From: an uncultured Fodinibius sp.
Lineage (GTDB): Bacteria > Bacteroidota > Rhodothermia > Balneolales > Balneolaceae
Assembly (NCBI GenBank): GCA_913057775.1
Contig: CAJXOG010000004.1
Span: 1-64,000 of the forward strand
Direction: 5' to 3'
Length of the DNA stretch: 64,000 nt
Positions within the stretch are counted from its first letter, which is position 1; each line of letters starts with the position of its first letter. The notes below the pieces were generated by a model. The model searched no databases. It was not told the origin of the DNA and saw only the letters and a program-made list of their open reading frames with translations. Shown one piece after another: positions 19,280 through 22,410 of this stretch. The position numbers and the translations under genes are program-made.

Positions 19280-20464
19280 TTAATACTGTGGAATCGACTC
19301 GTCAACCTTCTCTGACCATGCAAGAATTCCGCCCTTGAGGTTATAGAGATTATCAAAGTCGTATTCTTCTTGAAGCTTATTGATGGCTTTTGCACTACGA
19401 ACTCCGCTTCTGCAATGGACAACCACTTTTTTATCACGGCTGATTTTATCGGTCTTATTAAGTACGGTATCCAGTGGAATAAGCTCACCGCCCATTTCAG
19501 CAATCTCCACTTCGTATGGTTCTCGTACGTCGATGAGTTGTACCTCTTCCCCGGAATCCAGCCATGACTGGTACTGCTCAACAGTAACTTCGGGTACCTC
19601 TGATTTGCTTTCCTTTTGCTCTCCGTTAGTGGAGGGAATCCCACAGAATGCTTCGTAATCGATTAGTTCTGTAATTTCTGGGTTTTCGCCCCGCAGCGGG
19701 TTGTCCTCATTCTTAGTGACATTTACTTTTCGGGTGCTGAAATCCTGGGCATCAAACAGAAACAACTCCCCTGAAAGTGGCTGACCAATACCGGTAATAA
19801 TTTTAATAACTTCGCTGGCTTGCAGGCAACCAATAATACCGGGTAATACCCCCAGCACACCGGCTTCTGCACAGTCTGGAACTAACCCGGGAGGGGGCGG
19901 CTCGGGAAACAGGTCGCGGTAATTGGGGCCGCGATTTTCTTCTTCGTCCACATAATTGAATACCGAAAGCTGTCCCTCGAATTGAAAGATAGAGCCGTGG
20001 ACATTCGGTTTATCCAGCATCACGCAGGCATCATTAATAAGATAGCGTGTGGGAAAGTTATCTGTACCGTCGGCTACCACATCATACTGGTCAAGGATCT
20101 CCAGTGCATTTTCGCTGGTTAGCCTAGTTTCGTGTATTTGAATATTGATGTGAGGATTAATTTCCTGCAGACGTTCTTTAGCTACCTCCACTTTGGAACG
20201 GCCAACATCTGAAGAACCAAACAGGATTTGCCGGTGTAGATTGCTAGCCTCAATCTTATCAAAATCAACAATGCCTATGGTGCCAACCCCTGCCGCAGCC
20301 AGATACTGCAGCATCGGGGCTCCGAGTCCGCCGGTTCCCACGGCTACAACTTTGGCAGCTTTGAGCTTCTTTTGTCCCTCCATTCCAAATTCTGGAATGG
20401 AAAGGTGGCGGCTGTAATGACCAAGTTCATCATTTGAAAAGTCGATGTCTTTCCATGTATTCAT
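19280..20464 (-). CDS. moeZ: MoeZ-type E1 adenylyltransferase/sulfurtransferase
   Basis: 394 residues: ThiF/MoeB E1 domain (about 1-270) plus C-terminal rhodanese (about 295-390). The E1 part has the ATP loop AVGTGGLGAPML, IVDFDKIEASNLHRQ and the DCAEAGVLG loop Cys. The MoeB zinc cysteines are replaced (RDLFPEP; no CPxCG), as in actinobacterial MoeZ, and the linker ITELIDYEAFCG also fits that type. The rhodanese active-site Cys is in VVHCRSGVRSA. It should adenylate the C-terminal glycine of the carrier encoded just upstream and transfer sulfur to make a thiocarboxylate. It is the last gene of the cysM-mec-carrier-moeZ set, 47 bases after the carrier. Confidence 0.9.
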   Translation of the reverse strand: MNTWKDIDFSNDELGHYSRHLSIPEFGMEGQKKLKAAKVVAVGTGGLGAPMLQYLAAAGVGTIGIVDFDKIEASNLHRQILFGSSDVGRSKVEVAKERLQEINPHINIQIHETRLTSENALEILDQYDVVADGTDNFPTRYLINDACVMLDKPNVHGSIFQFEGQLSVFNYVDEEENRGPNYRDLFPEPPPPGLVPDCAEAGVLGVLPGIIGCLQASEVIKIITGIGQPLSGELFLFDAQDFSTRKVNVTKNEDNPLRGENPEITELIDYEAFCGIPSTNGEQKESKSEVPEVTVEQYQSWLDSGEEVQLIDVREPYEVEIAEMGGELIPLDTVLNKTDKISRDKKVVVHCRSGVRSAKAINKLQEEYDFDNLYNLKGGILAWSEKVDESIPQY

Positions 20465-20511: not shown

Positions 20512-20802
20512 CTACAAAGGTAGATGATAACATCCTCCTGCAATGGCCGGTACGATACTAATTTCGGTATCAGCTTTGAGCTCAGTAGTATCATCATCGG
20601 CGGGATTTACTTCTTCGTCACCGATATAAATTTTAATATACGACCGGACATTACCGTTATCATCGAGCATATTTTCTTTTACTCCGGGATATTCATTTAC
20701 AAACTGATCGATTGCATCAGACAACGTCTGTTTATCGGTAGTGAAATCCCGGTTTTGGTCGGTAAATTTTCGTAATGGGGTTGGGATAATAATCTTAGCC
20801 AT
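20512..20802 (-). CDS. cysO: CysO/MoaD/ThiS-like sulfur carrier with a C-terminal tail after Gly-Gly
   Basis: 96 residues, beta-grasp fold. The start AKIIIPTPLRKF, the middle IKIYIGDEEVN and the end SIVPAIAGG match CysO-type carriers. Mature carriers end exactly in Gly-Gly, whose carboxylate becomes a thiocarboxylate. Here Gly89-Gly90 is followed by six more residues (CYHLPL) before the stop, so the protein as encoded could not be activated until the tail is removed. The gene just upstream encodes a JAMM protease; its TAA overlaps this ATG by one base (TAATG), implying coupled translation. The MoeZ-type activator follows. Role: sulfur donor for cysteine synthesis by the neighbouring CysM-like enzyme. 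Confidence 0.88.
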   Translation of the reverse strand: MAKIIIPTPLRKFTDQNRDFTTDKQTLSDAIDQFVNEYPGVKENMLDDNGNVRSYIKIYIGDEEVNPADDDTTELKADTEISIVPAIAGGCYHLPL

Positions 20803-21257
20803 TATACTCGTGTTTTAGATTTTTGAGTTGAATATTCTGTTATTTCGATCTTCTCCTCGTCAAATTGCCGTTCTTTGTTGAGTCGCCATGAAGTTGTGTC
20901 AACGACCTCTCCATCTTGTACAGAAATAATGATGTAGGAAAACCACGGCATGGCTACTTCCCGATCGTGTTCGGATGGTGTGGCCGGGTGATCTGGATGC
21001 GAGTGATACACTCCAAGTAGAGTTAACCCATGGTCGTCGGCATATTTTTCTGCTTTCTGATAGTCTTTCGGATCAACTTGAAAGCGCCGTCGCTGATCGC
21101 CTTCTTTGCTATTTTCCACTTCCCAAACTAGTTGAATTTGACGGTTTTCATTTTCTATTCCGAAGAAAAAGCCGCAGCATTCATTCGGATAGTCCGCCTC
21201 GGCATGGCGATGTATTTTACTCAGCGTATCCCGGTCGATTTCTAATTTAGTACTCAT
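20802..21257 (-). CDS. mec: JAMM/MPN (M67) metalloprotease, Mec-like
   Basis: 151 residues. The JAMM zinc signature is intact: an upstream Glu in PNECCGFFFG (about residue 25), then the HSHPDHPATPSEHD block (about residues 86-99) giving His-x-His-Pro...Ser-x-x-Asp. In Mycobacterium the homologous Mec+ releases cysteine from CysO-Cys; in other systems such as QbsD it trims residues after the Gly-Gly of a carrier. Here both jobs are plausible because the carrier has a tail. It lies between cysM (six-base gap) and the carrier gene (one-base overlap). Confidence 0.9.
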   Translation of the reverse strand: MSTKLEIDRDTLSKIHRHAEADYPNECCGFFFGIENENRQIQLVWEVENSKEGDQRRRFQVDPKDYQKAEKYADDHGLTLLGVYHSHPDHPATPSEHDREVAMPWFSYIIISVQDGEVVDTTSWRLNKERQFDEEKIEITEYSTQKSKTRV

Positions 21258-21263
21258 ATTTAT

Positions 21264-22208
21264 CTAGATTATTTGTGTTAGAGTTTCCCCGTATTTGCTT
21301 CCGTCATCGGGAAATATGGTTACAATTGTTCCCTCATCAATTTCTTTAGCCAACTGAAGAGCACCAATCAGGTTTGCTGCTGCAGAAGGACTTAGTAGCA
21401 GTCCTTCATTTCGGGCTGTTTTAGGAATCAACTCGTAGGCTGACTCAGTGCTAACCTCCCTAATTTCATTAGGAAGGGTATCGTCATAAATATCGGGGAC
21501 AATAGCTGTTTCTAGATGCTTCCATCCCTCCAGACCATGCATGGCGATATCCGGCTGTAGAGCAGTAAGTTGTATTTCAGGATTAAATTCTTTGAGTTGT
21601 TTTCCCGTGCCACAGAAAGTACCCGTAGTTCCGAGTCCGGCAATAAAGTGCGTAATACAACCCTCTGTTTGTTCAATAATTTCGGGACCGGTAGTGTGGT
21701 AATGGGCTTTCCAGTTGCTGGAGTTACTATACTGGTCGGCGTAATAATATTTGTCGGGATTATTTTCGTACAGAGTTTTTGCCACTTCTTGAGCTTCGTC
21801 GGTGCCGCCGCCCCGGGAGGTCAGATGCAGATTTACACCAAGCGATTTCAGAATATCTTTACGTTCATCCGATGCATTTTCCGGAAGACATAATGTCATA
21901 GAGATTCCCAAATGTGCAGCTATATGAGCATAGGCAATACCCGTATTTCCACTGCTGGCGTCGAGCAAATGCTTGCCTCTCGATAATTCTTTACGTTGGA
22001 TGGCGTCATAAATAATTTGATATGCTGGGCGTGACTTCACACTGCTACCCAATTGCTGCCATTCCAATTTTGCATAGATAGTTACATTCTTATTTGGATT
22101 GAGATTTGAAATTGGGAATAAAGGAGTGTTACCAATAAAGTTGCCGAGCCGATCGACTTTGTCAGCCAAGGTGTATTTAGTTTGTTCTTTCAGTTTAGGA
22201 GTCTTCAT
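21264..22208 (-). CDS. cysM: CysM-like PLP-dependent cysteine synthase
   Basis: 314 residues, fold type II PLP enzyme. The PLP lysine lies in GSSVKSRPAYQI (about residue 58), the substrate loop in ASSGNTGIAYAH, and the phosphate-binding glycine loop in GLGTTGTFCGTG (about 193-204). In this operon it should add the carrier thiocarboxylate to an activated serine (O-phosphoserine in the mycobacterial case), giving carrier-Cys, which the adjacent JAMM protease hydrolyses. First gene of the operon; no Shine-Dalgarno is visible. A Cys-rich leader ORF and a hairpin lie upstream, suggesting attenuation by cysteine supply. Confidence 0.9.
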   Translation of the reverse strand: MKTPKLKEQTKYTLADKVDRLGNFIGNTPLFPISNLNPNKNVTIYAKLEWQQLGSSVKSRPAYQIIYDAIQRKELSRGKHLLDASSGNTGIAYAHIAAHLGISMTLCLPENASDERKDILKSLGVNLHLTSRGGGTDEAQEVAKTLYENNPDKYYYADQYSNSSNWKAHYHTTGPEIIEQTEGCITHFIAGLGTTGTFCGTGKQLKEFNPEIQLTALQPDIAMHGLEGWKHLETAIVPDIYDDTLPNEIREVSTESAYELIPKTARNEGLLLSPSAAANLIGALQLAKEIDEGTIVTIFPDDGSKYGETLTQII

Positions 22209-22240: not shown

Positions 22241-22264
22241 AGGTCAAACGAAGTCGTTTAACCT
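22241..22264 (-). promoter_or_regulatory. Hairpin between Cys leader and cysM
   Basis: Read on the minus strand, AGGTTAAACGA...TCGTTTGACCT is an eleven-base inverted repeat with one G-U pair, centred about 45 bases before the cysM start and about 75 bases after the Cys-leader stop. It is not followed by a clean T-run, so it may block ribosome access or be part of an alternative fold rather than a standard terminator. A smaller CCGTT/AACGG hairpin sits at 22304-22320, just after the leader. Confidence 0.45.
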
Positions 22265-22329
22265 TTAGAATTCGCTAAATTGCCGCTTAAGTTTGAGAAG
22301 AGAGCCGTTCTTATTAAACGGTAGGAAAC

Positions 22330-22410
22330 TTAGCTACAACAACAGCAACACACACCACAACAATAGTGAGCAAAGAGAGGTGAAAAGAATGTGTTGGTTG
22401 CTATTGTCAA
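22330..22410 (-). CDS. Predicted Cys-rich leader peptide of the cysM operon
   Basis: A short frame ends in ...HYCCGVCCCCCS-stop: seven cysteine codons in the last ten, on the same strand as cysM and 121 bases before its start. The frame extends upstream as far as 22521 with no ATG; I take the nearest in-frame start-like codon, TTG at 22410, giving 26 residues, but the true start is uncertain. Ribosomes would stall at the Cys run when charged Cys-tRNA is scarce. Cys-rich uORFs are known to act this way before cysteine genes in mycobacteria. The upstream end is insulated by a terminator at 22519-22550. Inference from position and composition; no homologue was checked. Confidence 0.6.
   Translation of the reverse strand: MTIATNTFFSPLFAHYCCGVCCCCCS

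Follow-up and report, generated by a model that had tools for sequence, protein, structure and literature searches.

A sulfur carrier with a masked Gly-Gly

The locus raises the question how a sulfur carrier is brought into use when its Gly-Gly is not the end of the encoded protein. The window, i.e. the whole stretch of 64,000 nucleotides from an uncultured Fodinibius sp. that was analyzed, contains four adjacent genes on the minus strand, encoding a cysM-like enzyme, a JAMM protease, the carrier and a ThiF-rhodanese E1:

21264-22208, minus strand: cysM-like PLP enzyme of the cysteine synthase family (Pfam PALP)
20802-21257, minus strand: JAMM metalloprotease, Mec/HvJAMM1-like (Pfam Prok-JAB, 5e-29, and JAB)
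20512-20802, minus strand: CysO/ThiS-type sulfur carrier in precursor form, 96 amino acids, Gly-Gly at residues 89-90 (Pfam ThiS)
20515-20532, minus strand: codons for the tail CYHLPL past Gly90, predicted to be removed (from the translation and the extensions of relatives at the same point)
19280-20464, minus strand: E1-like adenylyltransferase with a C-terminal rhodanese, MoeZ type (Pfam ThiF and Rhodanese)

The match of the carrier to the ThiS family (PF02597, 4e-8) extends as far as the second Gly (residue 90), and the same residue coincides with the chain end of its best PDB match, CysO of M. tuberculosis in complex with CysM (3dwg_C). The encoded C-terminus is not this Gly. Translation of 20512-20802 on the minus strand bears out the earlier note in that six more residues follow, the protein ending in ISIVPAIAGGCYHLPL, i.e. 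VPAIAGG-CYHLPL, and for this reason the carrier was filed as a precursor variant and not as standard CysO. An AF2 model of the carrier has a confident core, with the last block at around 55 pLDDT.

In the window genome (G000), a single Prok-JAB/JAMM protein and a single ThiS-family protein were detected, and all three partners (JAMM, CysM-type PLP enzyme and E1-rhodanese) are linked to the carrier. The catalytic residues of the JAMM protein (E26, H85-S-H87, S95 and D98) are retained in 71-72 of 72 homologues, and its PDB matches are 2kcq and JAMM1 (5lda). The best named NCBIfam match of the JAMM protein is the Haloferax desampylase HvJAMM1 (72.7 of 130 bits), that of the carrier is SAMP1 (52 of 60 bits), and the PLP enzyme matches cysM at 1.7e-87; all three lie under the cut-off of the respective model. 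The order cysM-JAMM-cysO-E1 recurs in nearly all loci of relatives with enough flanking sequence, and the JAMM gene is present in the locus of 72 of the 75 carriers compared below. Translational coupling of JAMM and carrier had been proposed as well; the overlap of one base between the stop of the former and the start of the latter (TAATG) is real in the window, but it is not a conserved feature, as two of 74 junctions overlap, 33 have a gap of 0-30 nt and 39 a longer gap.

Extensions beyond the Gly-Gly in related carriers

Carriers from relatives and from a genome collection were read to their stop codons, which yielded, after removal of duplicates, a set of 75, mostly from Bacteroidota and Rhodothermia. 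Ten of these stop directly after the Gly-Gly (among them that of a close relative, L007), 58 continue with 1-16 unrelated residues, six run into an E1 and one into a peroxiredoxin. Ala-Gly-Gly itself is invariant in the 64 carriers that were aligned (A88-G89-G90 in the window). The ThiS/MoaD carriers that the relatives encode outside the operon served as a control, and all 29 of them end exactly at Gly-Gly (Fisher p = 1.4e-17 for extension in operon versus non-operon carriers, a value that is optimistic given that the species are related); several genomes of the window's genus hold both kinds. With 65 of 75 homologous carriers extended and none of the 29, a sequencing artefact is excluded, and chance loss of a stop codon in one genome was rejected on the same grounds. 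Considering that the non-operon carriers all end at Gly-Gly and that the JAMM-linked ones are mostly extended, masking of the Gly-Gly is a property of the JAMM-linked carrier, which makes the latter a widespread precursor form of the CysO type.

In the six E1 fusions (L009, L013, L014, L015, L020 and L049) the E1-rhodanese is joined to the Gly-Gly of the carrier via a short linker, and in L063:5001-5912 a 1-Cys peroxiredoxin follows AIAGG; a Pfam check was done on four of the seven fusions. The Gly-Gly and linker of an E1 fusion (residues 87-117) are predicted to be disordered by an AF2 model of low confidence (68.5, six sequences), which was taken for linker disorder only. A tree built from the other proteins of the operon requires at least six changes in tail presence and at least five origins of fusion, and such repeated changes would be easy only if the Gly-Gly becomes exposed post-translationally.

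What the orthologous carriers share is the Ala-Gly-Gly, and neither the sequence nor the length of what follows; varying from 0 to 16 residues over the 75 carriers, the tail was rejected as a conserved functional peptide. Orthologues without a tail, one half of what the earlier note would have taken as a refutation, do occur among the 75. The same fate befell the Cys-led peptide that the earlier note expected cleavage to free, at least as a conserved product: the first residue after the Gly-Gly (P1') is Ile in 20, Ser in 12 and Cys in 11 of the 65 extended carriers, with no case of Asp, Glu, Pro or Gly, although Cys is found there at 18 times its background of 0.9 percent. The Cys (TGT/TGC) and Ser (TCA) codons at P1' are one change away from stop codons, and therefore part of the excess may reflect a history of stop-loss rather than selection. 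Four carriers (L002, L035, L054 and L056) are encoded exactly as Gly-Gly-Cys followed by the stop. This corresponds to the CysO-Cys intermediate, which would then be made by the ribosome itself.

Such variability also fits another reading, in which the tail is inert read-through that drifts neutrally, the JAMM protein only hydrolyses CysO-Cys, and ordinary proteases trim the tail or it is tolerated. Both the unconserved length and sequence and the ten tailless carriers agree with it, Cys, Ser, Arg and Leu as first residues can all be reached from stop codons by one change, and short tails could be trimmed by a housekeeping protease, though whole E1 domains could not be trimmed precisely. The six E1 fusions and the peroxiredoxin fusion, however, demand a precise cut after the Gly-Gly, and the absence of tails from all 29 ThiS/MoaD carriers of relatives implies that drift is permitted only where a JAMM is linked. 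Neutral tails would still require a matching protease; this reading, which we regard as unlikely, differs mainly in that the tail has no use.

One tailed carrier (L033) comes from a draft genome in which no JAMM was found and lies on a contig that ends just upstream of the carrier gene. L066 was considered as a JAMM-less counter-example and rejected, as another contig of the same genome carries the complete operon with its JAMM; its isolated tailed carrier (L066:5001-5285, ending in AIAGGVKTH) is located 3' of ferredoxin-/NuoB-like and 5' of 2-oxoacid:ferredoxin oxidoreductase-like genes. In two further loci (L164:2632-2904 and L165:4794-5078) a second ThiS-like carrier, ending in LSGG or VSGG and without a JAMM of its own, adjoins a BNR/sialidase-like repeat protein.

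Probable carrier maturation and a proposed route to cysteine

Given the masked Gly-Gly, the intact adjoining JAMM and the restriction of tails to JAMM-linked carriers, maturation by the JAMM protein is the best reading, and it is most likely this enzyme that removes the tail. The cysM and E1 neighbours make the release of cysteine from CysO-Cys its expected second role, and probably the same protein carries out both. By analogy, a dual role is not unprecedented: HcyD of Wolinella is said to take Ala off HcyS and also to free homocysteine, and in the Pseudomonas pair QbsD/QbsE a short carrier tail is reportedly processed by a JAMM protein. HcyS-Ala and QbsE resemble the carrier of the window in having residues past the Gly-Gly and a JAMM partner; their tails are short and fixed, whereas here they are unconstrained and range up to whole enzymes, and the pathways served lead to homocysteine or a thioacid siderophore, unlike the one proposed here.

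Ubiquitin-fold carriers fused via Gly-Gly to an enzyme, as in the E1 and peroxiredoxin fusions, are represented by SAMP1-MoaE, MoaD-MoaE and MoaX, in which carrier and enzyme are both released by cleavage behind the final Gly (PMC4443979, PMC8832034, PMC4326299). With SAMP1-MoaE fusions, HvJAMM1 places its cut precisely behind this Gly, in vivo as well as in vitro, and thereby activates the carrier (PMC4443979), the Deinococcus enzyme DRJAMM likewise cuts MoaD-MoaE (PMC8832034), and MoaX of M. tuberculosis requires a cut between GG and S by a protease as yet unidentified (PMC4326299). The partners in these cases belong to molybdopterin synthase, whereas in the present set carriers are joined to their own E1 or to a peroxiredoxin.

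The same four kinds of protein make up the CysO-CysM-Mec-MoeZR system of M. tuberculosis, in which the JAMM protein hydrolyses CysO-cysteine (PMC3227635). CysO ends at the Gly-Gly there and the carrier of the window is a precursor; in addition, the E1 is within the operon here and the gene order is different. An identical gene set in a related lineage, Salinibacter ruber, is the class 4c operon of Iyer, Burroughs and Aravind (2006), composed of ThiS/MoaD, JAB, E1-rhodanese and cysteine synthase genes, and these authors predicted that JAB proteins cleave ubiquitin-like fusions and so free the C-terminus (PMC1779556); the passages of that text consulted here make no mention, for class 4c, of carrier tails, E1-rhodanese fusions or a poly-Cys leader. 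What is new here is probably the occurrence of tails and fusions on JAMM-linked carriers as a variant of the known CysO pathway, together with a leader for which the literature searched gave no earlier report.

We consider it likely that the locus is an operon of the M. tuberculosis CysO-CysM-Mec kind, with a carrier that is inactive as first synthesized, and that one JAMM protein both matures it and releases cysteine; that the carrier is cleaved, when this happens and how cysteine is formed are the parts of this scheme that we infer. The JAMM protein would first cleave after the Gly-Gly, discarding six residues in the window and, in relatives, 0-16 residues, the E1 or a peroxiredoxin. The E1-rhodanese would adenylate and then thiocarboxylate the exposed Gly, the CysM-like enzyme would join an amino-acid acceptor to the thiocarboxylate, and an S-to-N shift would give CysO-Gly-Gly-Cys. 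Finally, the JAMM protein would cut the bond between the Gly-Gly and the next residue once more, which would yield free cysteine and a recycled carrier. After the S-to-N shift the adduct contains an ordinary Gly-Gly-Cys peptide bond. Both cuts would consequently be hydrolysis of the bond after the Gly-Gly, and tolerance of tails would follow from an enzyme that is needed already, while the ten tailless carriers indicate that the pathway can do without maturation.

No credible CysE was found in the window genome (best E-value 7e-5, versus 1e-46 to 1e-50 in seven relatives), which makes it plausible that the operon provides a route from sulfide to cysteine without the need for O-acetylserine. 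On O-phosphoserine as a possible acceptor for the CysM-like enzyme, this lack of CysE bears indirectly. A second cysK-family enzyme is encoded in the same genome (G000:C1:312558-313478), and the CysE gene of one relative (G001) adjoins cysK.

The carrier and the JAMM protein, with SAMP1 and the Haloferax desampylase as their respective top NCBIfam matches, would also suit a ubiquitin-like protein-modification system of the SAMP1/HvJAMM1 style, in which the JAMM protein matures the modifier and strips it from target lysines, with cysteine synthesis being secondary or absent. The carrier-peroxiredoxin fusion could be read in this way too, as it recalls the urmylation of the peroxiredoxin Ahp1 by Urm1, a related carrier, in yeast (PMC7016264). 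Both matches nevertheless fall under the model cut-offs, cysM is in the operon throughout, an E2-like gene is lacking from it, and the poly-Cys leader described below would couple expression to cysteine supply, so that we deem protein modification quite improbable. Still less probable, in our estimate, is that the carrier chiefly feeds another thiolation (e.g. tRNA 2-thiolation or molybdopterin) and that the JAMM protein only matures it. The carrier is the sole ThiS-family match in the window genome, as such a role would have it, but relatives with separate ThiS/MoaD proteins retain the same operon, and operon and leader indicate cysteine.

The reading that we prefer, of one JAMM protein serving both maturation and cysteine release, comes with a testable rule: JAMM-linked carriers may bear any C-terminal cargo, and carriers without a JAMM may not. 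The same reading connects sulfur carriers, which are related to ubiquitin, with the processing of ubiquitin-like precursors. Eukaryotic ubiquitin is likewise made as fusions and with tails. The extended carriers would also provide natural single-bond substrates for probing JAMM specificity, among which the fusions to E1 and to a peroxiredoxin stand out.

The poly-cysteine leader upstream of cysM

Upstream of cysM two further features were recognized in the window:

22330-22410, minus strand: poly-cysteine leader ORF, ending in HYCCGVCCCCCS before the stop, with the Cys run at 22336-22350
22241-22334, minus strand: structured spacer from the leader stop to cysM, two predicted hairpins (RNA fold z = -2.58)

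The start codon of the leader is uncertain, being either TTG at 22410 or an in-frame GTG at 22353. The second hairpin of the spacer (GGTTAAACGA-cttc-GTTTGACC at 22264-22241) is not followed by a T-run. When the 450 nt upstream of cysM were searched in 62 different loci, three or more consecutive Cys codons were found in 54 (shuffles 1.2; opposite strand 5) and four or more in 46 (shuffles 0.06; opposite strand 0), with TGT and TGC mixed. An in-frame ATG lies within 35 codons in 43 of the 46 leaders (shuffles 8) and is absent in the window; leader ORFs were found upstream of the operon across L031-L100. Between leader and cysM a strong intrinsic terminator is present in 34 of 54 cases (shuffles 1.8), and in 14 leaders the first arm of the terminator has an exact upstream partner of at least 6 nt (shuffles 0), which in L047, L051 and L053 is an antiterminator partner, GGAAAGGC, within the leader ORF. 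Other (TGY)5 runs in the genomes were rejected as further leaders, as the examples retrieved look like out-of-frame matches in other contexts, save those of cysM.

On the basis of these sequence features, the poly-Cys leader is probably a cysteine attenuator of the operon. Stalling of the ribosome at the Cys codons would favour the antiterminator, as in a trp-like attenuator, and the leader would thereby raise expression of the operon when Cys-tRNA is scarce. The window's genus retains the leader together with a structured spacer, but a T-run terminator between leader and cysM was not found there, so that Rho or translational control is possible there.

An Rfam search of nine loci for known attenuators matched only a tRNA, and the literature searched, excluding most subscription papers, yielded no Cys leader described for this operon or phylum, in which a cysteine-sensing leader is now indicated. 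Comparable short ORFs with Cys codons 5' of cysteine-related genes have been reported from another phylum and for other operons, namely the Cys leader peptides without terminators of Mycobacterium cys operons (PMC1262725) and uORFC-8-2 upstream of cysS in Rhodobacterales (PMC8632094). Many Bacteroidota leaders differ from the mycobacterial ones in having a clear intrinsic terminator.

Taken together with the fusions, the leader allows a wider reading, which we offer with somewhat less than even confidence: the carrier of Bacteroidota and Rhodothermia could be a general cleavable C-terminal slot, accepting tails, E1 or peroxiredoxin, for one JAMM protein that also closes the cysteine cycle, with the carriers ending in Gly-Gly-Cys as ribosome-made CysO-Cys and the operon under a previously undescribed poly-Cys attenuator that reads the end product.

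Some 5-60 nt past the leader stop, a hairpin occurs in the window's genus and relatives (L031, L080-L092), with arms such as GTTACCGG..CCGGTAAC and ATTACCGA..TCGGTAAT; the arms seem to covary by eye, the MAFFT alignment being poor for counting. In L042, L051, L052, L061, L063, L064, L070, L075 and L076 two tandem poly-Cys ORFs are located within 450 nt upstream of cysM, and these are perhaps leaders in series, or one of them is that of a lost or other gene.
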